Positions 9,740 to 56,163 of a DNA stretch of 64,000 bases are shown here, in pieces. A model generated the notes under the pieces. That model was not told where the DNA came from, did not search any database, and was given only the letters and a program-made list of their open reading frames with translations. The translations under genes and the position numbers were made by a program. Position 1 is the stretch's first letter; each line of letters begins with the position of its first letter. The stretch covers positions 79,646,643-79,710,642 of the forward strand of contig CM049307.1 of the NCBI GenBank assembly GCA_026874595.1, written 5' to 3'. This stretch comes from Sipunculus nudus (Eukaryota; Annelida; Sipuncula; Golfingiida; Sipunculidae).

Positions 9740-9788
9740 AAATATGAAATAAATAAAATGTCCTTTATATTTTCTGGAGTGTTTGTTA

Positions 9789-9990
9789 AGCTGTGTTTCC
9801 ATGTATCCACAAATATCGTTTCCGCAAAAGACGTACGTACGCTCCTTAGTGCGAAGTCCGCAAAGCCAAAAGCTGTTTCCATAAGTACGTACGTGAAAGA
9901 GGGTGAAAGACCTAAAAACGCACTGAAAAACGTATCTAATGGACACACATGCACAAATATCCGCATACGTATCCGCACCGCACACGCACC
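9789..9990. mobile_element. Left part of a short inverted-repeat element split by the large transposon
   Basis: It begins TTAAGCTGTGTTTCCATG, like other short element ends in the window. From about 9,905 it matches 46,704-46,791 almost base for base (GTGAAAGACCTAAAAACGCA ... CGCATACGTATCCGCACCG). Its missing right part, GCATCCGTACAAGTGGACAC GCGGCTT, is found at 18,378-18,406, on the far side of the 8.4-kb transposon. Confidence 0.65.
9985..9990. other. Left copy of 6-bp target-site duplication (CGCACC)
   Basis: CGCACC immediately precedes TACGGAAGCG and recurs at 18,372-18,377 immediately after CGCTTCCG. The related unoccupied site at 46,786-46,791 has a single CGCACC. Confidence 0.7.
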
Positions 9991-10028
9991 TACGGAAGCG
10001 TATATAGGACATGGGAAAAAAAAAAATA

Positions 10029-10205
10029 ATCCGCCCGGGCGGAATACTAATCTGCCCGGGCGGTTTAGTACTTCGCCCGGCGGATTGCTATTTCGCCCGG
10101 GCGGATTGCTATTCCGCCCGGGCAGATTACTATTCCGCCCGGGCGGATGAGTATTTCGCCCGGGCGGGTGAGTGTTCCGCCCGGGCGGAATATATAGTAT
10201 TCCGC
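10029..10205. repeat. Subterminal array of CCGCCCGGGCGG palindromes, left end
   Basis: About nine units, mostly 20-22 bp, each have a 12-bp palindrome core CCGCCCGGGCGG (or a near variant) plus an AT-rich spacer such as ATTGCTATT or AATACTAAT. The first spacer has the orientation expected of the terminal inverted repeat. The following spacers read like AGTATT on the plus strand, the same direction as in the right-end array. They could be transposase-binding sites, by analogy with subterminal repeats of other DNA transposons. Confidence 0.85.
10191..10200 (+). promoter_or_regulatory. Candidate TATA element of the integrase gene
   Basis: TATATAGTAT lies about 66 bp upstream of the integrase ATG, at the inner edge of the palindrome array. 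The position is right for a core promoter but nothing else supports it. Confidence 0.35.
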
Positions 10206-10256
10206 TTGAGCGAAATAACAGGACTCAACATCGCACTAACGTTTCTGACTTGTAAG

Positions 10257-11158
10257 ATGGATCGACCGGAGATTATTCGTGTATATTTTAATCTGGGATT
10301 TACTCAGAAAGAAATACTTTTGTGTTTAGCACATAACCACAGAATCATCATTAGTCAGAGAAATCTGCGCAGACTGTTAAATAAACAAGGTCTATATCGA
10401 AGAAAAAGACAAACTGATTTAATGACAGTTGCTTTGTTTATTGAGGAGAACCTGCAGCATTGCAGCCAGCTTTATGGCTATCGATGGATGCATCAAAGGT
10501 GCTTACAACAAGGTTATGTTGTAACTCAGGATACTGTTCGGATATTGCAGCAAATACTTGATCCAGAAGGTGTTGAAGCTCGGAGAAGACGGAGACTGGT
10601 TCGTCGAAGATACAGAAGCGTTGGACCGAATGAAACGTGGCATATGGATGGATACGACAAACTAAAACCTTTTGGCTTAGCCATCAGTGGGTGTATAGAC
10701 GGGTTTTCTAGACAAATTATCTGGCTGGAAGCTTATTATACAAATAACAACCCAAAGGTTATATTAAGTTATTATTTAAGTGCAGTTATCGAAAAGGAAG
10801 GCTGTCCAAAAAGAGTGAGAGCTGATATGGGCACCGAGAACGGACGTGTGGAACAAGTGCAAAGATTTCTCCGCCGAAATTCCACAGACAGTTTTGCAGG
10901 ACAAAAGAGTTTTATGTATGGTACAAGCACAACAAACCAAAGGATAGAGGCATGGTGGGGTTTCCTACGAAAAAACTGTGTACAGTACTATATGGATATT
11001 TTGCATACGCTAAAGGAGGATGGTCATTTCACTGGTAATCAGCTGGATAAAGAACTGGTCCGGTTTTGTTTCATGAAACTGCTTCAGGTCAATTAATTAC
11101 ATGCATGTATAAAATTTGAAAAACATTACGACTAATTTATGTAAAATGATTTATGAAA

Positions 11159-11210
<52 letters not shown>

Positions 11211-12030
11211 GGAGAATTGAAACATATATTTACATGTTTTACAAAATAAGGCGCCAAGGCTCCACTGTTAAACTGTTAAGATGTTAACTTCCATCAAATA
11301 GCAGAATATAAAATAGAAAAGCAGAATGGAGGTATAAATTGTGCATGCAGCTAACAAAATGTGACATACTCTGCATAAAATTAAAAAGTCAAAGTCAATT
11401 GGAATGACATGTTAAATGAAAGTTCGTACACGATTTTCTATAAGTGGTACCCACTAGCTATGTCCCTATATTGCACTTATTTCCACATAATAATTAATTT
11501 GTTCAAGGGGAGTAAAAATAGCCAAGTCTTGCAATTGTGTCCACCGCAGTTCTGGGAAAGTGGCTGAACCCATTAGTTTCAAACTTTCCATAATGGTAGC
11601 ATAATATATAGGAGTGATAATATATAGGTGTGATAGTTAATCTTCAACATCACTCTGTGACTATAGTCATTAATATATTTGTATATCAATGTTTCAGAAT
11701 GACCTGGACCGAGTAAAACACACATGGAACACACACAAAATGAGAGTCAATAAAACGATAAACCATCCAGGAGGACGTCCACTGCTGTTCTATTCTCTTC
11801 CTGAATTGTACGGCATGCAAGACCAGATAATTGAAGTAAACTTGGACGAGGTTTATGAATGTGAAGCTGAATGTGTATACAAAGGACAGTATCCGTGTGA
11901 CAGCGACATTTTTGAGATATCGTGTATCCTGATGGACGAAAATGACTGGCAAGTTCCAAAAAGTGGATACGAGGCGGCACAACTATATATAAAACTCATA
12001 AATCAATTACACAATGACCTTGGTATGTGA
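10257..12030 (+). CDS. IS3-OrfB-like DDE integrase/transposase, spliced
   Basis: Transposase of the enclosing element. Exon 1 (10,257-11,087) encodes 277 residues. Residues about 15-50 look like a helix-turn-helix (FTQKEILLCLA ... RNLRRLLNKQGLYRR). Residues 73-105 (YGYRWMHQRCLQQGYVV, then TVRILQQ) match the HTH_21 segment of bacterial IS3 OrfB. The rve-type core carries D131 (WHMDGYD), D190 (RADMGTEN) and E231 (NQRIEAWW), a DD(40)E arrangement. Exon 1 ends CTTCAG|GTCAAT and exon 2 starts after TGTTTCAG at 11,698 in the same phase, restoring the family tail NDLDRVKHTWNTHK ... PLLFYSLPELYG. If the stop at 12,028-12,030 is used, the protein has 387 residues. However, TTG|GTATGT at 12,023 is a strong donor, so a third exon is possible. 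The intron holds a (TA)n run. Upstream in-frame codons in the GC-rich array are not family-like, so the ATG at 10,257 is preferred. Confidence 0.85.
11164..11210. repeat. (TA)n microsatellite in integrase intron
   Basis: Uninterrupted TA run inside the intron at 11,088-11,697. Confidence 0.98.
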
Positions 12031-13531
12031 AAAGCGGAAATTCAATGCGTGGTCATTCTAATTTTACCGTCAAATAAATCATAAACTTGGTTCCTCCCTG
12101 TGTGTTTACCGTTAATTGATTTTTAAAGGAGGAAAATAATATATTGCATTATTGATAATATAACAGTATATCTGGATTCACGAGTCTCACAGATTGCTTA
12201 TCTGGCTAGCTTTCTTATTTTGATCAAACTAAAAATGTTAATGACTCTACAAAGAGCAACACGCTGAATCAAATCGTTTACTGTAGATGTATAAAAGAAC
12301 AATATAAACTTAATCTGATCAAAGTGCATTAAGAATAAAACGTATTTAGCTCTTTTCTTGATTCGACAATTTTTCCATTTGTGTGTCTGTTATCATTTTT
12401 CTTATTTATACTCGTCGATTTAAGGTAGCGTGAGAGATGTATTAAGATATATTAAGTAGGTCAGAGGATGTGTCCTATAAAATTATCAAGACGTATCATA
12501 ACATGTTGTTTCATGATCATATAATATTAGGAAAAAAGAGCATACGGCTTTTAGCTCGTCTGGTTCGAAGGACCAATGAGCTTTCAGTATGAGTGGCATC
12601 TGGCGTAGTCCGTCTGTATGTCTGTTAAATTTTGGTATTTTCTTCTCCCAAAATGCTACCTGAGGAATGGTTTCATATTATGTGTGTAAAATTAAACCAT
12701 CACCACTACCGCATTGATATCTGAGTGTTGTTTTAACAAGAGTGTATGGTTAACGGGGGCTCGATTAGTGTTTGTGGAATTTAGTGATGCGGGTTGGACG
12801 GCCAAACCTTGCGAATTTGGAGGTGATGGTTTGTGTATATATTGTGTTTGAATGTTGAAGTGGAGTGGTTTCAGTATTGCTTGGTGATGGGGTGATATGG
12901 CAGGCAGCAAATTCCCCAAGTCTTCCCCATTATCGGTAATGATGCAAAGTTAACAATTAACAGGAAGCGACTAGAATCTTATCTCGTGAAAATGACCGGA
13001 AATACTCCATGGTAAGTATATAGCCAATTTATTGATAACCAGTGCCGCATCACGGAATGGATTTACATCATACATGTTATAAAAACAGTCTCTTGTGATA
13101 GCATAGTTATTACTTATACATAACATATTCATGTGGATTGACAAACCAACAATGATGACAACCCTATCTTCGCATAGTAACAGCCTGATCTATTGATCCT
13201 TACGTGATTGATTCTATGAAAAACGAGCAACAAATTATCATTTATATTCGAAACTCTTATTGTAAAGTGATGCATGCTTTGCATTTATTAATCTTTGTAA
13301 GTCCTCTTTAAAATGATCATGGGGCGTAAGATGGGGCGTAAATCTTGTATCCAAATGGTCATGCGAAAGGTTTTCCTTATGATTAGTCCATAACTATAAC
13401 ATGAAATAAAAATGAAATTCTAGCACCACCACCCCCCCCCCCCCCACCCCATACGGTAAACTAAGATAAGCATTAAACATAACAACAATATCATTCAATT
13501 ACAACCTTTCAGACTCCTTGAAATTTTGTAG
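12031..13531. other. Non-coding stretch between integrase exon 2 and candidate exon 3
   Basis: AT-rich. At about 12,550-12,620, TTTTAGCTCGTCTGGTTCGA followed by GTAGTCCGTCTG resembles the end of a mollusc-type dispersed repeat. A poly-C run lies at about 13,431-13,445. No convincing gene is seen; the minus open frame at 12,692-12,919 shows no domain. Confidence 0.45.
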
Positions 13532-13633
13532 AGAGCGTACATGAGCGAGTAGGTCTATCTCTTGAACCATACATTGATGAATTAGACACTAATCGTGTTA
13601 ATGCTCTCTCAAGTTATAGAGTTGCTACTATTG
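13532..13633 (+). other. Candidate third exon of the integrase gene
   Basis: A 102-bp open stretch is bounded by a pyrimidine-rich acceptor (AAATTTTGTAG) and a consensus donor (TTG|GTAAGT). Joined in phase to the GTATGT donor at 12,023, it gives ESVHERVGLSLEPYIDELD, then TNRVNALSSYRVATI, with no stop. I do not recognise the sequence as part of the integrase family and no terminal exon was found before the convergent HECT gene, so this is only a splice-signal-based suggestion. Confidence 0.3.
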
Positions 13634-13820
13634 GTAAGTCTGCTACACATTAAAGCACGGCAAATGAGGCTCAAATGCCAGATATATATCTAATGTGTAT
13701 TATATTTTATGCAAATGATGTCCGACATGATTAGTCTCTAACAATTACAAGAAATACAGCTTATTTCTATTAATCAGATCATAACAGGATTTCCCATAAA
13801 CCAGTAGGCCTATCACAAGT

Positions 13821-16800
13821 TCAGTCAATGTCAAACTTCCCAGAATGGCCTGCGAGAACATTCAAAAACTCATGCCTGAACTCTGGAAAAGAGGAGTAAG
13901 TACTTGAAAGCTCCAACATGGGCGTACAGGTGCGGGCAATTGGTGCTCTTGCTAAGCCCCGTGCTTTGTTGAATGAGATACTGATCTTCTCTACGCAAAT
14001 GACCCGCGCTCCAGTAACAAAATGCAGAAAATTGACCAGAATATCAGGGGCAAAACCTCTTATGAGCTGTTTCACATATCCAAACACTCTGTTTTCTTCA
14101 ACATCTGCAGGCGATGCCTGTAAAAGCTTCAGTACCTTTCGACATGATGGTTGTTTGGATTCATAAAGATCCAACAGACTTTTCGGATTAGGCAAATTTG
14201 GCAACAAAGCCCCTCTTACAATTGTTGCCATGGCATCGAGAGCATACTTGCTTTGCTGTATCAGTTCAGCCTGAGCGATTTGATTGAGAACTACCTTGAC
14301 ATGATCACCTGTAGGTACAGTATGGCAATCCATACGTGCCAACAAATCCTCGAAGTCTTCCTGATCGTCTTCGTCAACCAGGTTACTATCTAAAGCTTTC
14401 TTAATGACTACCCTCTCTGGTTCCGTTACATAAAGTAGAAAAGATTCCATTAGGAGATCCGTTGATACTTCATGTTCCCCAAACAACATGGCTACCAAAA
14501 AGGCCCTAGAAATCTGTATGGGAAACACTCCGTGATCAAAAAAACCCTTCACGAGAATGCGTCCAACAGCCTCCCATTCACCAAACTGTAAATGAGGCAT
14601 TATGGCTGGCACCCTCTCTTCCTCTCCCTTTGCAGACGAACTCAGGAACTGGTCCCAACAGCAGGTATATGCATCTCTTGAGACCCCATACACATCTACA
14701 CCTCTTTCATTCACAAATGTAAACGTAAGAGGAGTATCTAGTATGTTTGGGTCCATGAATCTGGTGATGATGTCATGCTGAAGCATGACTCTACGCACTC
14801 TGATTTCACCTTGAACTCCTTTAGCGACCACAGGCGATAAAGGTCCAGGCTGAAGTTGCTGTACAAATGCAGCCACGGAAACCTGGGGATCTTGCTCGGA
14901 TGAAAACTGATTAATTGGCTGTATGGATGATGGAGGCGGTGTTGGAGACCGTTGCTCGGGTGAAGACCTATTGGATGAGAAAGGAGTCGGGTCCCTTTCT
15001 GTGTCCTGAACGGATATCTTCTGTTCATCAAACGTCAGCGGGAGAGTATCCGATAAGTTAACATTGGAACACATGGGATCCGGTCCAAATGTGACCTCAT
15101 CGTCATTTGTAGGAGCAGAGCAACTTCCATCAATAACAATCTCCTGTTGGACCCAAGGCTCATCTAAATCAGGCAATGATTCAAAAACCGGACATTCACT
15201 TTGAATTTCGTTTGCCCTGGGCGCGCTGGTATTAACCGGTTGTTTGAAATTACAGGGAGATATCTGTATTGGTGACACCTCATGTTCAATAGGTCCCTGT
15301 AGGACATATACTTGGCTTTGGGTGGGCGTGCTTGCTGTACATATTTGGTTTTGGGTGGGCGTGCTTGTTGTAGCCGGGCGAACCACAGTATGAGACACCT
15401 CTGGTCTTGCAAACGTATCTTGTGTGTCTAACTTACAGTCTGTGACCTTTCTGAGAGGAGGGCCGGTTGAGTACAGAAAAAAACGGAGCTTTCCGCTCAT
15501 TTTCACCATGTCACAAAAATCTCCAACTGTTATATTCGGTGATAGTTCTTCCTGGGTAAAATCACGCACTGTAAAGGTACATTCTTCAACCTTTACAGAT
15601 TTACGACAGACCCCTTTTGGAAAGAATAAATTCTTGGCCTCATTTAACAAATCTTCATGGGTGCTGCTCTTGGCAATAGTTGTTTTTCTAGTCCCGCCAC
15701 CATTTGGCCTTCGAACATTAGTACCATTATGATACCACCCAAACTCTATTGTACGTGTTGATTTGGAAGCATTTTGATTTCCAATTAACTTGCTGGCCTT
15801 CGAGGATGTTTTTATTTCATCCTCAGAATGCTCATCACTATCTTCAAAAGAATCATTAGTGTTTAATCTCATTTTCTTTCGAATAGATGCGTAACATTTC
15901 CTCTTTCTTTGCTGTCTTGCACTTTCTTTGTGAAGAGCCTTTTCTTTCTGACAAAAATCCCTTAGAGCCAATCGGTCACCAATGCACAAGAATTTCGCGA
16001 GCTCATCACTGTTTGACCCCAGCTTTGTCACAACATCCACGTCGATCTAAAAATGAAAGAATCACCCACTGAAAATATATATCATGTACATGTACGTTTT
16101 ACATAAAAATACATATTTTTTCTTATAATATTCAGGTTCTACTCTGTTTCTGCTAAACGTGTTGACACCCCTGCCACTAATGAAGGATTTTTCTAAAGCT
16201 GTCAGACAAGCAAGTATTAAGATAGCAGTCGCTCCATTTAATCACGTACAATCAGCATAATCACAAAAATATACAGAACAAAACAGACGGACTCAACGCT
16301 ACTATTAAGTCATATCTTTAACCTGTGCACTTTAGGCCCCTTTTCCATGCGCGCGGAAACGCGCTGAAATAAATCGCGCATGTGTAAATCAGGTATACCT
16401 TTTCCATGCAGGCGGAAATGCGCGAGTTTAAACGCACCAGTGTTAATCATGTGTCCCTTTTCCATGCACGCGGAAACGCGCGCGGGTGAGCCTGCTTGTG
16501 GAGGTCAAGGACGCGAATGCAGTCTGCTTGAGGACGCCCCAGCATAGTCTTATATCATGCATGGCAACAAATCATACTTAACTGCTGTTATGCTTGTCTA
16601 CTTTAATGCATGATTATATATATATTATATAAACATATATATATATGTGCGGCGGGAGTGTTGAATATCTTATTACCGACTGCGGTAGTTAATAATCTTC
16701 TCATATATAACCTATATATGACCCCCGCCCTCCTGTCAATAGTACATGCACTACCGTAATAAAAACTATACGTTCCTGCAAATATAACGAAATTTTAAAT

Positions 16801-18101
16801 GTCTACATGCATGCAGTGAACAGACACATGCTTCACATGATGCCGGGAAGGCTGTGGGACGGGAATACCTTGTGAAAACAGGTCACGCGAAGGAGGGGAT
16901 TCTGCTGAAACGCGCGCGTTTCCGCGCAAATGGAAAAGCTAAATTCAGCGCGATTTTTTCAACGCGCGGAAACGCGCGCGTTTCCGCACGCATGTAAAAG
17001 GGGCCTTACTTCGGATTACAGATTATGTCATTTAAAGATTTTAATGATTTTGAGTTTAACTTTAAATGAGGTTTTATTTTTATTCTGGAAGATGTTTTTT
17101 TATATTAGGGAAAATGAACATGCGGGTCCTTATTATATATGGTAATATATTGCCTGATAGAAGTTGCGGTGGCGTAACAGGGACAATACATATATGCCAC
17201 TTGTTATATAGATAATGAAAGCGACTATGGATTGAACAATAATATTTAATTCTAAAAATCATAAACCAAAAACATATCTCTGACTCATACAATCACTTCT
17301 GATAGCATTCCTGTTTCGCAAGTCTCGTGTATATACACATGTATCCCTCTTTAAAACCTTGTCACTGACTGACTACTTGCTAGCTCCCCCAGGGACCTCT
17401 GACCCCATGCAGTCCTCCAGTATTCCGGCTAACGGGGAATTCTATTTACATGTATCTGCCGCTTATATCTTTGCCCTAAGGCGTAGACAGCAGTCTCGGT
17501 AACAAGTAGCATAGCAGGCCAGTGTAATATATATATTCAGAGTCGCCTATATCCCTGTAACATAGGCCTATGTCTGGCAGAGCCTATTAGGGTTATGAGA
17601 ACAGTGACAAACTTGGCGGGGTTGGGGTAGTCGGAGGAGCTGAAATCTCGTCTCCATCATTTTAAAACCTTATATCCCCACTGAACAGTATAGGTAAATG
17701 CGTATGTTGACGTTGGATCTTGTAAGGTGAAATATTTAAGTTCTACATTGCACAATTCAGGTTTTCTCTTACCCTAAAATCAAGCGTAATTATCCAACGA
17801 TCTCCACATTCAAATAGGTTTAACGTTATTGTACAAACAGTGTAAGCTACAATATTGACTACTATATTATTCAAGTAACACCAAAATATAAAACAAATAA
17901 TAAAGAAGACAACAGAATCATTTAATTGACTGTATCTTTTGACGTCTTGATTGTTTTTCAATTCTATACTTTTTTATAAGAGAGAACATGGTCTTAAAGT
18001 TCCAAAGCAGGCCTGTTTACCTTTTCATTCTTCATCTCTTGTATAACATCTTCTTTCAAGCCTCTTTTTCTTAAAAAAGTATATATTGGATCCTCTGCCA
18101 T
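13821..18101 (-). CDS. HECT-domain E3 ubiquitin ligase (G2E3-like), spliced, carried by the transposon
   Basis: Exon 1 (18,101-18,021) encodes 27 residues, MAEDPIYTFLRKRGLKEDVI then QEMKNEK, ending AAG|GTAAAC. Exon 2 (16,046-13,821) follows TTTTTAG in phase and starts IDVDVVTKL. The junction rebuilds a SAM-like module ending GDRLALRDFCQKE. After a basic stretch (QQRKRK ... RKKMR, residues about 72-87) comes a GGGTRKTT ... LFFPKGVC region (about 124-214) shared with fish and bivalve 'G2/M phase-specific E3 ligase-like' proteins. A Ser/Pro-rich linker and a HECT domain (about 440-768) complete the 768-residue protein. Recognisable HECT parts are FVNERGVDVYGVSRD, WEAVGRILVKG and RTCTPMLEL, with catalytic Cys734 present. 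HECT enzymes pass ubiquitin from an E2 through this Cys to a substrate. Intron 1 (16,047-18,020) contains another inverted-repeat element. No canonical AATAAA was seen downstream. Its role for the transposon is unknown. Confidence 0.85.
16334..17008. mobile_element. GC-rich inverted-repeat element (MITE-like) in the HECT intron
   Basis: The left end reads TAGGCCCCTTTTCCATGCGC then GCGGAAACGCGC. The right end is the inverse, GCGCGTTTCCGCACGCATGT then AAAAGGGGCCTTA. CCTTTTCCATGC.CGCGGAAA-type motifs repeat about three times near the left end, and GCGCGTTTCCGCGC palindromes repeat near the right. It has no open frame of its own. At about 675 bp with complex subterminal repeats it looks non-autonomous. 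Confidence 0.75.
17009..18014. other. Remainder of HECT intron 1
   Basis: AT-rich sequence without a recognised gene. Confidence 0.5.
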
Positions 18102-18195
18102 GTTGAAAACTTCCGCAGCGCTTTCATTCAGCCTTTATGCAACCACTCCCTATACCGCCTAACATCGATCTACGTTCCCGCCAATGTGCACTTTT

Positions 18196-18203
18196 TATTT
18201 ATA
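18196..18203 (-). promoter_or_regulatory. TATA box of the HECT gene
   Basis: TATAAATA on the minus strand lies about 95 bp upstream of the exon 1 ATG, just inside the right-end palindrome array. A start about 30 bp downstream would give a 5' leader of roughly 65 nt. A second copy lies at 19,277-19,284 in the duplication. Confidence 0.55.
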
Positions 18204-18204
18204 C

Positions 18205-18335
18205 CGGGCGAAATAGGATCCGGGCGAAATAGAATTCCGCCCAGGCAGATTAGTATTCCGCCTGGGCGGATTAGTATTCCGCCCGGGCGGACTAGTATTC
18301 CGCCCGGGCGGACTAGTATTCCGCCCGGGCGGATT
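18205..18335. repeat. Subterminal array of CCGCCCGGGCGG palindromes, right end
   Basis: Five consecutive units at a 21-bp pitch (a 12-bp CCGCCCGGGCGG-type core plus a 9-bp spacer ACTAGTATT or ATTAGTATT), with two half-like CCGGGCGAAATAG units before them. Cores decay inward (CCGCCCAGGCAG, CCGCCTGGGCGG). The array is repeated at 19,286-19,416 by the tandem duplication. Confidence 0.9.
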
Positions 18336-18371
18336 ATTTTTTTTTTCAAATATGTCCTATATACGCTTCCG

Positions 18372-18377
18372 CGCACC
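18372..18377. other. Right copy of 6-bp target-site duplication (CGCACC)
   Basis: CGCACC follows CGCTTCCG and continues into GCATCCGTACAAGTGGACAC, the remainder of the interrupted short element. Confidence 0.7.
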
Positions 18378-18409
18378 GCATCCGTACAAGTGGACACGCG
18401 GCTTAACGC
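18378..18409. mobile_element. Right part of the interrupted short element
   Basis: GCATCCGTACAAGTGGACAC then GCGGCTTAA matches the right terminus of the 46.5-kb element. It completes the short element whose left part is at 9,789-9,990. Confidence 0.65.
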
Positions 18410-18574
18410 TTGACTCTTTTGAAACTGCACACATGCACGATTTCATTTTAATTGCACCCGGTGACCTGGCGCCGGGGCACAGTTTGGAAATGTAGCCATT
18501 TTTGCCATCCGCAAAACGGATGAATCGCTCACCGTTCCGTTTCGATGCGGTCCGTTTTTGCGGATACCTATGCG

Positions 18575-18680
18575 GAGCACGTTTACGTACACATGGAAAC
18601 AGTTCATCTTAAAAAGAGGCATACGATTATTTTGCGTACGAGACGTACGAGATTTACGTACATGGAAACACAGCTTACTG
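18575..18680. repeat. Short-element terminus with TTTACGTACATGGAAACACAG
   Basis: TACGTACATGGAAACACAGC then TTAC is the inverse of the TTAAGCTGTGTTTCCATGTA terminus at 9,789. ACACATGGAAACAGTT nearby is a degenerate second copy. These are probably ends of related MITE-like elements nested here. Confidence 0.5.
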
Positions 18681-18746
18681 TAGAAGATACCACCTCCATA
18701 AACTCTTTATATTTTACTTACAAGTACTTTTCTCGAGTAAACAAGA

Positions 18747-18840
18747 CCAGCTGTGACACTGAAATGTACAAGCCGAGTCCGGCGAGTGTTGTTAATTTCA
18801 ATGCCATGGACGGAAAGTACACCCGCACTGGTGTGTGAAA
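18747..18840 (+). repeat. Dispersed repeat 'CAGCTGTGACACTGAAA', copies in the tandem duplication
   Basis: CAGCTGTGACACTGAAATGT, then GTTAATTTCA and GGAAAGTACACC. Related copies are at 19,828-19,921, 26,580-26,710 (minus), 33,575-33,715, 46,850-46,920, 49,980-50,045 and more weakly 59,195-59,265. Confidence 0.7.
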
Positions 18841-19012
18841 TAAAAACCTATGTTAAAGAAAACAATCGTCTGCTGCGACAAATGATGTCTGCAGCTGGCA
18901 GCCATACTGAAGTATCACTCGACCCAGCGATTCTGGACCTAATGCGTTTGCCTCTCTTTAAGGGAGGGTGCAGTTGGAGCAAAAGATAACCCCAGCAGTG
19001 GCTGAAGCAATG
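18836..19012 (+). other. Possible captured exon of unknown gene
   Basis: The frame reads EIKTYVKENNRLLRQMMSAA, then GSHTEVSLDPAILDLMRLPL FK. A one-base shift would continue VQLEQKITPAVAEAM up to ATG|GTATGC, a donor-like site. Codon content looks protein-like, but no family is recognised and the frame changes once. The tandem duplication copies it at 19,917-20,093. Confidence 0.3.
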
Positions 19013-19170
19013 GTATGCAGCAACTTATTTCTTATTTAGATATTTATAAAATACTGCATTCATTATTTTTTTATTCTAAAGAAAACAAGGGACCCATGAG
19101 TCACAGTGCTCAGCTGAAATTGATCATAAAAGTCATAAATAATAGATGTTATCATATAGAGATTAATGTA

Positions 19171-20251
19171 ATCCTCTGCCATGTTGAAAACTTCCGCAGC
19201 GCTTTCATTCAGCCTTTATGCAACCACTCCCTATACCGCCTAACATCGATCTACGTTCCCGCCAATGTGCACTTTTTATTTATACCGGGCGAAATAGGAT
19301 CCGGGCGAAATAGAATTCCGCCCAGGCAGATTAGTATTCCGCCTGGGCGGATTAGTATTCCGCCCGGGCGGACTAGTATTCCGCCCGGGCGGACTAGTAT
19401 TCCGCCCGGGCGGATTATTTTTTTTTTCAAATATGTCCTATATACGCTTCCGCGCACCGCATCCGTACAAGTGGACACGCGGCTTAACGCTTGACTCTTT
19501 TGAAACTGCACACATGCACGATTTCATTTTAATTGCACCCGGTGACCTGGCGCCGGGGCACAGTTTGGAAATGTAGCCATTTTTGCCATCCGCAAAACGG
19601 ATGAATCGCTCACCGTTCCGTTTCGATGCGGTCCGTTTTTGCGGATACCTATGCGGAGCACGTTTACGTACACATGGAAACAGTTCATCTTAAAAAGAGG
19701 CATACGATTATTTTGCGTACGAGACGTACGAGATTTACGTACATGGAAACACAGCTTACTGTAGAAGATACCACCTCCATAAACTCTTTATATTTTACTT
19801 ACAAGTACTTTTCTCGAGTAAACAAGACCAGCTGTGACACTGAAATGTACAAGCCGAGTCCGGCGAGTGTTGTTAATTTCAATGCCATGGACGGAAAGTA
19901 CACCCGCACTGGTGTGTGAAATAAAAACCTATGTTAAAGAAAACAATCGTCTGCTGCGACAAATGATGTCTGCAGCTGGCAGCCATACTGAAGTATCACT
20001 CGACCCAGCGATTCTGGACCTAATGCGTTTGCCTCTCTTTAAGGGAGGGTGCAGTTGGAGCAAAAGATAACCCCAGCAGTGGCTGAAGCAATGGTATGCA
20101 GCAACTTATTTCTTATTTAGATATTTATAAAATACTGCATTCATTATTTTTTTATTCTAAAGAAAACAAGGGACCCATGAGTCACAGTGCTCAGCTGAAA
20201 TTGATCATAAAAGTCATAAATAATAGATGTTATCATATAGAGATTAATGTA
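19171..20251. repeat. 1,081-bp tandem duplication, unit 2
   Basis: Copy of 18,090-19,170. Only the first few codons of HECT exon 1 are included, after which the reading diverges, so this copy has a promoter and ATG but no ligase exon. Confidence 0.93.
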
Positions 20252-20319
20252 ATCAAAAGCGAATATTAGTTTAAATGTATCTGTTACATATTTGATGGTT
20301 TAGAAATTCAGGTTTCCAA

Positions 20320-46512: not shown

Positions 46513-46820
46513 TAAAGCTGCGTGTCCACTTATGCGGTACGGATACGGATGCGGATGCGTTTTTAATCGCGCATATGGAATAAAGAAGGAGTGTGTCCAC
46601 TTATGCGGTGCGGAAACGTATACGTTTGTTAAAAACCGGACCATGAAGCCCCGGGTACGGAAACGCATGCGGAAACATGCCATTTTGTAGAGGTTTAAGA
46701 GAGTGAAAGACCTAAAAACGCACTGAAAAACGTATCTAATGGACACACACATACAAAATATCCGCATACGTATCCGCACCGCACACGCACCGCATCCGTA
46801 CAAGTGGACACGCGGCTTTA
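46513..46820. mobile_element. Short inverted-repeat (MITE-like) element, the family hit by the large transposon
   Basis: The ends are TAAAGCTGCGTGTCCACTTA and, inverted, TAAAGCCGCGTGTCCACTTG. A second internal terminus-like motif, GTGTGTCCACTTATGCGGTG, is at about 46,590. It has no coding capacity. 46,704-46,791 match 9,905-9,990, and 46,786-46,817 match 18,372-18,403. It therefore preserves the target site before insertion. Confidence 0.75.
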
Positions 46821-53900: not shown

Positions 53901-53934
53901 TTATGAGAACCAAATGTAATAATATAACGTCATC

Positions 53935-56163
53935 ATGAGTCTTTTGACTACAATCACGTATCCGGTGGTTACGTTTCTGGCTTTCTGTGTATTATGTATA
54001 AATAGCCAAGAAATATGTGATGTAGAACCACAAATACCACCCGGAGAAATATTCGCTTGCAAAATAAATGACAACGAAAGGAGAGACAATGGACAATTAA
54101 TGTGTGAATATTACCCACAATTTCAAACCCGTGGCTGTTTTTGTGACAAGCATTGCGCCTACTTTGGGGACTGTTGCGATGAGTATATCTCCAATATCAC
54201 AGCACTGGAGGACATTACGTTTTCCTGTAGCTCTGTGGACGGGGTTTACAGTCAGGGTGTTAGCGTTTACGTCGTGGATAGATGCCCATCTTTCTGGAAG
54301 GAAGAAGGAGTGAGGGAAGCTTGTGAAGACACACCGGGTATATGGTACAACTCGCCAGTAACAGGGGAACATGATATTTTGTACAAGAACGTGTACTGTG
54401 CGCAATGTAACGAAGAAAACATGGACAGTATTACTTACTGGCTTTCAAATTTCACGTGCGATTTTATGGATCAGGAACTAACAAACAGTACAAATATCGC
54501 AGATATTATCGATCAGCAAAATCAAACCAGTCCTTGCAATGTGTCATTTGTCCATCCTGACGCCTGGCACAAATATTCCACGTACAAACCATACCGCTTC
54601 TGTAAGCCCAATATTGGCCACTGTCCAGATTCGTGGAAAGATAAGTGTGTACGGAACAAATGTGAAGCTGAGAACGCGACAGAGTTGTACAGATACGACA
54701 AACAAAGAGAGGGCGTAACATACAAAAACCCACATTGTGCTCTCTGTAATAACGCTAACGTCACCTGTGTGGATACCTATACTAAGCAACACTTTAAAAT
54801 TGCTCCGTATTTTGAAACTGTCAGAGGAACATCACACCCACTGTGTATTGTAATAGATCTTAACCTTGGTTCCGGTGTTATCACACGAGAGGTAGGATAT
54901 ATGACAGGGACGCGAGTCAAAGTTGAAACCGAATTAGTGACCTGCCCATCAGGTAAAATATTTGATCCATACTCAGCAGTTTGTAAAGTTGTAAAATGTC
55001 CCCTTGAAGCCGAGTACCGAGACGGACAGTGCGTGAGTACCTCTACCTCCCCAAATAATAATAACACTTGTTCATATTATGCAAAAGTTAATGCCACAAG
55101 CTTTGAGTTTTACAACAATGGTTCCATCTTTGATCCGACTTCAGGTCGAATATACGGGAAGGACCTATATGTACTAGAGGAGCGTGGTATGTACCTATGT
55201 ATCGTTGATGCCATAAACATCACAGAAATAACACGCAATGTTACAGAGACATATCTCATTATGAAGTTTACCTACGCCCAGACGGTTGTTAGTAATTTAG
55301 GACAGAGTCTGTCAGTGATAGCGTTGCTCTTTCTCCTTGTGATCTACTGTTTCTATCCCGTTTTGAGGAATTTACCCGGCAAAAACCTCATGTGTCTGTC
55401 TGGTTCCTTGTTAATGTTTCAGCTGATGCAGATGACGTTGATGGGCGTGACCCACCTGCCGTTTTTCTGTATTATATCGGGAATTCTAATACACTTCAGT
55501 CTCCTTGCCGTGTTCTGTTGGATGAGTGTTCTCGCCTATGACATTTGGAGCACCTTTACCTCCAGGATTACAGTTTCAACAATTGTTAAATCAGACTTCC
55601 GGTTCCTCAAGTTTTCTCTGTATGCTTGGGGATGCCCCGCTCTGGTCATCCTTATAGGAGTACTGGTTAATTTCTGCGGTGGCAAAAGAAGTGACTTCTC
55701 CCCAGATTACGGTAAACACATTTGCTACATCTCAAACAGGTACGCTTTAATGCTGTATGTTGGAGTACCTCTTATCGGTCTGTTATTTGCTGACTGTGTA
55801 TTTTATACTCTAACAATCATAAGCATACACCGAACCAGCAACGTGACCACAGCGATCAGCGAGAACTGTCCAAACCGTCATAGGATGTGGTTGTACGTAA
55901 AGCTGACCTCCATCACGGGGTTGACATGGGTGTTTGGTCTGATCGGCTTCAGCACGGACCTTCAATTTCTCTGGTGGGTTTATATCCTCTTTAATTCTCT
56001 CCAAGGTGTTTTTATCTGCGTATCATTCGTTTGTACTCGAAAGGTATTTAAGATGATGCGCGAGACTTATCGGAGAAAACCTAGTGTGGACGCCAGTAAG
56101 AGTACTTCTTTACAGACTCAGCGCACCTCAGTTACGTCCGAAACCGCACATCGAACTCACTGA
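53935..56163 (+). CDS. Intronless seven-transmembrane receptor with somatomedin-B-like module (secretin/adhesion/Methuselah-like)
   Basis: A single 742-codon open frame encodes a plasma-membrane GPCR; the ligand is unknown. Residues 1-24 form a signal peptide ending near NSQ. Residues about 42-84 hold a somatomedin-B-like Cys cluster (RGCFCDKHCAYFGDCCDEY). Two further Cys-rich segments (about 117-160 and 223-280, each with RCPSFW/HCPDSW and CAQCN/CALCN) look like internal repeats. Many N-x-S/T sites suit an extracellular domain. Seven hydrophobic segments lie at about 455-475, 484-505, 511-535, 558-580, 603-630, 653-675 and 679-700. NLPGKNLMCLSGSL before TM2, GLTWVFGLIG in TM6 and YILFNSLQGVFI in TM7 are family B2/Methuselah-like signatures. 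I see no GPS/GAIN cleavage motif. The tail is short and Ser/Thr-rich. The ATG at 53,935 is the first in frame before the signal peptide. This is probably a resident host gene, possibly a retrocopy. Confidence 0.9.
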   Translation: MSLLTTITYPVVTFLAFCVLCINSQEICDVEPQIPPGEIFACKINDNERRDNGQLMCEYYPQFQTRGCFCDKHCAYFGDCCDEYISNITALEDITFSCSSVDGVYSQGVSVYVVDRCPSFWKEEGVREACEDTPGIWYNSPVTGEHDILYKNVYCAQCNEENMDSITYWLSNFTCDFMDQELTNSTNIADIIDQQNQTSPCNVSFVHPDAWHKYSTYKPYRFCKPNIGHCPDSWKDKCVRNKCEAENATELYRYDKQREGVTYKNPHCALCNNANVTCVDTYTKQHFKIAPYFETVRGTSHPLCIVIDLNLGSGVITREVGYMTGTRVKVETELVTCPSGKIFDPYSAVCKVVKCPLEAEYRDGQCVSTSTSPNNNNTCSYYAKVNATSFEFYNNGSIFDPTSGRIYGKDLYVLEERGMYLCIVDAINITEITRNVTETYLIMKFTYAQTVVSNLGQSLSVIALLFLLVIYCFYPVLRNLPGKNLMCLSGSLLMFQLMQMTLMGVTHLPFFCIISGILIHFSLLAVFCWMSVLAYDIWSTFTSRITVSTIVKSDFRFLKFSLYAWGCPALVILIGVLVNFCGGKRSDFSPDYGKHICYISNRYALMLYVGVPLIGLLFADCVFYTLTIISIHRTSNVTTAISENCPNRHRMWLYVKLTSITGLTWVFGLIGFSTDLQFLWWVYILFNSLQGVFICVSFVCTRKVFKMMRETYRRKPSVDASKSTSLQTQRTSVTSETAHRTH

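Follow-up and report, generated by a model that had tools for sequence, protein, structure and literature searches.

A probable IS3EU/GingerRoot-type DNA transposon of Sipunculus nudus with a resident gene for a predicted HECT-type ubiquitin ligase

In the genome of the sipunculan worm Sipunculus nudus, a stretch of 64,000 nucleotides on contig CM049307.1 (positions 79,646,643 to 79,710,642 of the forward strand; hereafter the window, in whose own numbering positions are given) contains an inserted unit at positions 9991-18371, which carries a gene for an integrase-type transposase and a gene for a predicted HECT-type ubiquitin ligase. This unit is very probably an IS3EU/GingerRoot-type DNA transposon whose resident HECT gene moves along with the element, and at part of the loci described below the gene pair is likely to be old and kept by selection. 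The unit and the sites that define it comprise the following features:

9985..9990: left copy of the target duplication, CGCACC, present once at the empty paralogous site
9991..10192, plus strand: left terminal inverted repeat, beginning with TACGGAAGCGTATATAGGACAT, followed at 10030-10189 by an array of 21-bp units around the palindrome CCGCCCGGGCGG
10257..11087, plus strand: transposase exon 1, 277 amino acids, matching PF24764 at 1.5e-27, with the proposed catalytic residues D131, D190, and E231
11698..12030, plus strand: transposase exon 2, giving a spliced PF24764 score of 119.3 bits; a related exon is found in the C17, C14, and C16 elements
13821..16046, minus strand: HECT gene exon 2, 741 amino acids, about the last 310 of which form the HECT region (PF00632)
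13926..13928, minus strand: codon of the predicted catalytic Cys (residue 707 of exon 2), which aligns to the Thr-Cys of HUWE1
18021..18101, minus strand: HECT gene exon 1, 27 amino acids, just within the right end, completing a spliced frame of 768 amino acids
18220..18371, minus strand: right terminal inverted repeat with a similar 21-bp array at 18220-18336; the final TA is absent
18372..18377: right copy of the target duplication, CGCACC, present once at the empty paralogous site
46697..46818, plus strand: paralogous empty site, an uninterrupted copy of the flanking repeat with one CGCACC

The boundaries of the unit are known to the base because the paralogous repeat at 46697-46818 represents an uninterrupted site with a single CGCACC. 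This empty site is identical to the left flank in 91 of 96 aligned columns (94.8%) and to the right flank in all 33. The two inverted ends align over 152 columns with 82% identity. When up to three mismatches are allowed, the terminal 22-mer is found three times in the window compared to 0.00 expected occurrences, and sites matching CCGCCCGGGCGG with at most one mismatch are found 15 times compared to 0.01. The third 22-mer and four of the 15 palindromic sites are located in an exact 1081-bp tandem duplication (18090-20251), which covers the right end together with the beginning of the HECT gene and adjacent DNA; it either arose recently or is an artefact of the assembly. Both the left end and a second copy of the element, C6, have the terminal TA that is missing from the right end. 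The flanks also carry a short inverted repeat, TAAGCTGTGTTTCCATGTA, at about 9787-9819 and 18647-18677, and the insertion site of the 8.4-kb element may therefore lie within an older repeat whose ends are inverted.

The transposase gene consists of two exons encoding 387 amino acids after splicing, and the PF24764 score is 119.3 bits for the spliced protein compared to 97.1 bits without splicing. Models for IS3 (NF033516) and IS481 (NF033577) match the protein at 2.2e-8 and 4.6e-8, respectively, far under their cut-offs. The D/D/E triad is invariant across three aligned sequences, and the splice donor reads GTCAAT in the window versus GTAAAT in C6. A search of the PDB with exon 1 gave no match.

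The HECT gene is oriented convergently to the transposase gene, and its two exons are separated by an intron of about 2 kb (16047-18020). The frame of exon 1 and the GT/AG splice sites are preserved in C6, and a weak 11-residue match to this exon is found near a decayed copy at locus C10:24.45M. Exon 2 is the longest stop-free frame of the element with 741 codons, compared to a maximum of 183 codons in 200 first-order Markov sequences of the same length. PF00632 matches the HECT region alone with 25.7 bits (cut-off 23.9) and a relative at locus C17 with 33.9 bits. The best PDB match of the last 100 residues is HUWE1 (6fyh), which is weak (E 0.028) and has its Thr-Cys aligned; the corresponding Cys is invariant in an alignment of five HECT sequences. 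HUWE1 ranks first only with this short query and falls under RalGDS with longer ones (E 0.29). RalGDS chains, the top PDB matches with the HECT exon or region, are themselves weak (E 0.027 and 0.01) and were not accepted. Upstream of the HECT domain, a region GGGTR...LFFP without any Pfam match is conserved. Judged by its sequence, the protein ends in a divergent HECT domain with a catalytic Cys and is a predicted ligase. The intron contains an insertion with inverted ends (AGGCCCCTTTTCCATGCG...) at about 16334-17006, and a short exon-like frame on the plus strand is located between the two genes (13522-13650). Viral contigs that were scanned with both proteins and a conserved motif gave no match; in bacterial genome contigs this motif was found in two stretches, both judged to be chance matches.

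An earlier note on this DNA, prepared from the letters alone, had proposed one unit with terminal inverted repeats and a 6-bp duplication, holding two intact convergent genes for an IS3-OrfB-like DDE integrase and a 768-residue HECT protein with its catalytic Cys. The unit is borne out with exact coordinates by the empty site, and the integrase by the PF24764 match, the weak IS3/IS481 matches, and the invariant triad. The HECT protein is supported by PF00632 on the HECT region and the Cys aligned to HUWE1, and both frames are open in the window and in C6. The inverted ends are real, but they are longer than the 70 bp that had been assigned to them. The duplication is 6 bp long in the window, but it reads 7 bp at C6.

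Further copies were searched for in the assembly of 1.43 Gb (153 contigs). A search with the element end gave 32 matches, several of which are alternative alignments of one array. C6 is a full-length copy, 99.3% identical over 8408 columns, in which both genes are open, the ends read TACGG...CCGTA, and CATAACT is present on both sides. Its flanks are unrelated to those of the window element: apart from simple repeats, a single 11-base match is all that they have in common, and a segmental duplication was rejected as the origin of the copy. Across 8381 aligned bases, 33 substitutions separate the two copies, besides 30 gap columns, the last of which are at the missing TA; 13 of the substitutions fall in 3471 coding bases and 20 in 4910 non-coding bases. 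The unit has thus been inserted at two unrelated sites carrying both genes. A decayed third copy at C10:24.45M has both genes in the same layout, interrupted by 5 and 11 stop triplets; its right end was looked for and not found. Three short copies were also found. The one at C7 has kept both ends, with CAAATC on each side and transposase fragments between them, and contains no HECT gene. The copy at C11 has also kept both ends, with a duplication gctttc/gcttta (5 of 6 positions alike), and contains neither a transposase fragment nor a HECT gene, and the copy at C3 has the duplication TATATA in simple sequence. The end search proposed in the earlier note as a check has provided one further full-length copy: the same ends enclose both genes, and the insertion site is unrelated and has a different duplication. 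The contrary pattern named there, ends enclosing only the integrase beside a single-copy HECT gene, was not seen: the HECT genes are multicopy, and those short copies with ends that were read hold at most integrase fragments.

A genome search with the HECT protein gave at least 73 matches (60 of 108 candidates were scored), which by our own grouping represent at least about 37 separate places. Eleven of these loci, chosen mainly by their likeness to the HECT gene of the window and by intact frames, were inspected for a neighbouring transposase. A transposase gene is located beside the HECT gene at seven of the eleven, is convergent with it in all seven, and belongs to three diverged families:

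Window family: the window; C6; C10:24.45M (decayed)
Family C: C17:22.63M; C10:16.86M
Third family: C14:47.27M; C16:40.46M (HECT gene and convergent transposase exons)

Between families, the transposases are about 50% and the HECT genes about 43-45% identical; the transposase pieces of the third family are 32-58% identical. At C17, both genes are open: HECT exon 2 has 646 codons, and the transposase has 52% amino acid identity to that of the window. On its transposase side, 12 copies of TATGTCGTACGTACGAGATAG, 21 bp long around a palindrome, are followed by the end AATACGCTTCCGTA. The same end is found at C10:16.86M with a different flank and a transposase exon 1 that is identical over 278 residues; the right end of family C thus reads CCGTA at two sites. 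The families share their terminal sequence and the spacing of 21 bp but differ in the palindrome, which would fit each transposase reading its own repeat. Two more ends of this type lie near a HECT gene in the stretch L058 (1490-1720 and 6212-6341), one of which has a 21-bp array around TTGTGCGCACAA and the end GGGGCTCCGTA; these ends probably represent a further family.

Both proteins are likely to have been under long-term constraint, because amino-acid-changing sites are far less changed than synonymous sites between the window and C17. The values are pN 0.326 and pS 0.86 for the transposase, pN 0.375 and pS 0.83 for the HECT region, and pN 0.431 and pS 0.798 for the whole HECT exon, with synonymous sites so near saturation that no exact ratio can be derived.

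In the remaining parts of the window, relics of either gene were not found at E 1, and an Rfam scan of 9900-20300 gave no match. A single-exon frame of 746 codons (53923-56163) resembles an adhesion-type seven-helix receptor, as judged by eye.

Several observations weigh against an old gene pair that moves as one element. No transposase was found at C4:74.47M and C12:35.24M, in 9.9 kb read at each, nor in the 3.0 kb read at C3:53.68M and the 2.8 kb read at C10:61.56M. The link between the two genes is not strict, since four of the eleven HECT loci lack an integrase in the stretch read, and these eleven are drawn from about 37 places and are mostly those most similar to the window. The recurrence of both genes together, which the earlier note had set as a check, holds for C6, the decayed C10 copy, and two diverged families, but not for these four loci. 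In family C, the right end was found, but neither the left end nor an exon 1 of the HECT gene; the C14/C16 family has yielded no end, and neither the transposase core at C14 nor, in the stretch read, the first 74 transposase residues at C16 were found. The HECT domain is so divergent that PF00632 gives 22.0 bits on the whole exon 2, under the cut-off, and no Pfam match was obtained for the C12 and C4 relatives. A one-sequence model of the 352 C-terminal residues had a mean pLDDT of 38.6 and was unusable. Between the window and C6, 11 amino-acid-changing and 2 silent substitutions leave no constraint visible since those insertions, and dN/dS values between the window and the decayed C10:24.45M copy are 0.62 and 0.71. 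Finally, HECT copies may also spread by other routes, because the C4- and C12-type genes are multicopy, with at least eight near-identical matches for the former (C4, C5, C2, C9, C10, C17, and C7 loci) and at least six for the latter (C11, C12, C2, C16, and C1 loci). These genes may be carried by something else, or their transposase may be further off; at C4:74.47M the last HECT piece is located 6.7 kb downstream.

The two near-identical copies alone could have resulted from one capture of a host HECT gene by an ordinary IS3EU element and one jump, so that the gene would be a recent passenger with no part in the life cycle, and the lack of constraint between the window and C6 fits this explanation. 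It is nevertheless highly improbable, as the convergent pair is found in three families whose transposases and HECT genes have diverged to the identities given above and both proteins have changed far less than their synonymous sites between the window and C17. A HECT gene dropped by chance into an integrase element is likewise unlikely given three families with the pair. More weight is due to an independent multicopy HECT family that resides in several kinds of elements and has been picked up repeatedly by IS3EU elements. The numerous C4- and C12-type genes, of which the one locus read for each was without a transposase, fit such repeated pick-up, and TET genes pass between fungal transposon superfamilies according to the excerpt of PMC12730594 used here. 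The convergent orientation at all seven paired loci need not follow from it, although these loci amount to at most three independent observations, one per family; overall, this explanation is considered unlikely.

For the preferred interpretation, a resident gene pair, the following sequence of events can be envisaged. The integrase-like transposase would bind to the palindromic 21-bp arrays in the terminal repeats, and would cut and insert the unit. The HECT gene, read from the opposite end, would give an active ligase using the HECT Cys, which would attach ubiquitin to a nuclear host factor engaged in silencing of the element or in repair of its excision and insertion sites; copies with a working ligase would spread better. 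The same gene pairing at other genome sites points to a ligase that is of use to the element. As its main substrate, a host factor is a tentative choice that falls somewhat short of an even chance. The ligase could instead limit or time the transposase of its own element, which concerns its role only and is compatible with the observed mobility of the pair. Both genes reside within one element, and element-encoded regulators occur in other transposons; by reasoning, a self-limiting gene would be hard to keep under selection among parasite copies, and the transposase as main substrate seems rather doubtful. Other roles of the ligase account for the rest. That an animal IS3EU lineage forms a two-gene system with a ligase dedicated to counter-defence or transposition, and that its spread feeds the HECT copies of animals, comes close to an even chance.

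The presence of ubiquitin and SUMO proteases in transposons has hinted at the use of the ubiquitin system by mobile elements, and a resident ligase would add the conjugating side. If true, this would help to explain the multiplication of HECT genes in some animal genomes, and it would alert annotators to the possibility that genes of this kind belong to transposons. The HECT Cys is an obvious single-residue handle on the role of the ligase.

The assignment to IS3EU is based on the ends, the duplication, and the transposase, which fit this superfamily. In the excerpts of the publications considered here, IS3EU/GingerRoot elements are described with TA..TA ends and duplications usually of 6 bp (PMC10045372), and fungal IS3EU ends with TAYGG..CCRTA (PMC12730594); 45 IS3EU families were contained in Repbase in May 2022 (PMC10045372). 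The present element has similar termini, complete at C6 and with TA at the left only in the window, duplications of 6 bp (CGCACC in the window, CAAATC at C7) or 7 bp (CATAACT at C6), and an IS3/IS481-like integrase. It differs by the HECT gene and the 21-bp palindromic end arrays, which are not mentioned for IS3EU in the excerpts of PMC10045372 and PMC12730594. The protein shares the HECT profile and the Thr-Cys with HECT ligases and differs from them by its divergent domain and the upstream GGGTR...LFFP region. Unclassified repeats of Cottus fish match G2E3 in the excerpt of PMC5638112; the label 'G2E3-like' for the present protein stems solely from the earlier note.

IS3EU elements with extra genes are known from other organisms. 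In fungal IS3EU elements, a TET/JBP gene is located between transposase and alpha-kinase genes of opposite orientations, and the TET dioxygenase has been proposed to free these elements from methylation (PMC12730594, excerpt); by analogy, the present ligase may be its ubiquitin counterpart. Styx contains four coding sequences and is derived from a two-protein IS3EU element, the second protein of which is unnamed in the text of PMC10853768 used. In contrast to the present element, the extra genes named in these excerpts are not ubiquitin ligases. Ubiquitin- or SUMO-pathway enzymes within transposons are also found in Ginger1, Mutator, and Helitron elements, which carry Ulp1 or OTU protease domains and for which a role of the ubiquitin pathway in transposition has been proposed (PMC2836005, excerpt). 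Among the titles and abstract beginnings listed in a literature search, no HECT gene was named in a DNA transposon, and an example known only from Repbase is possible. Ulp1 and OTU proteases remove SUMO or ubiquitin and are domains of the transposase in Ginger1, whereas the present element has a separate gene for a predicted conjugating enzyme.

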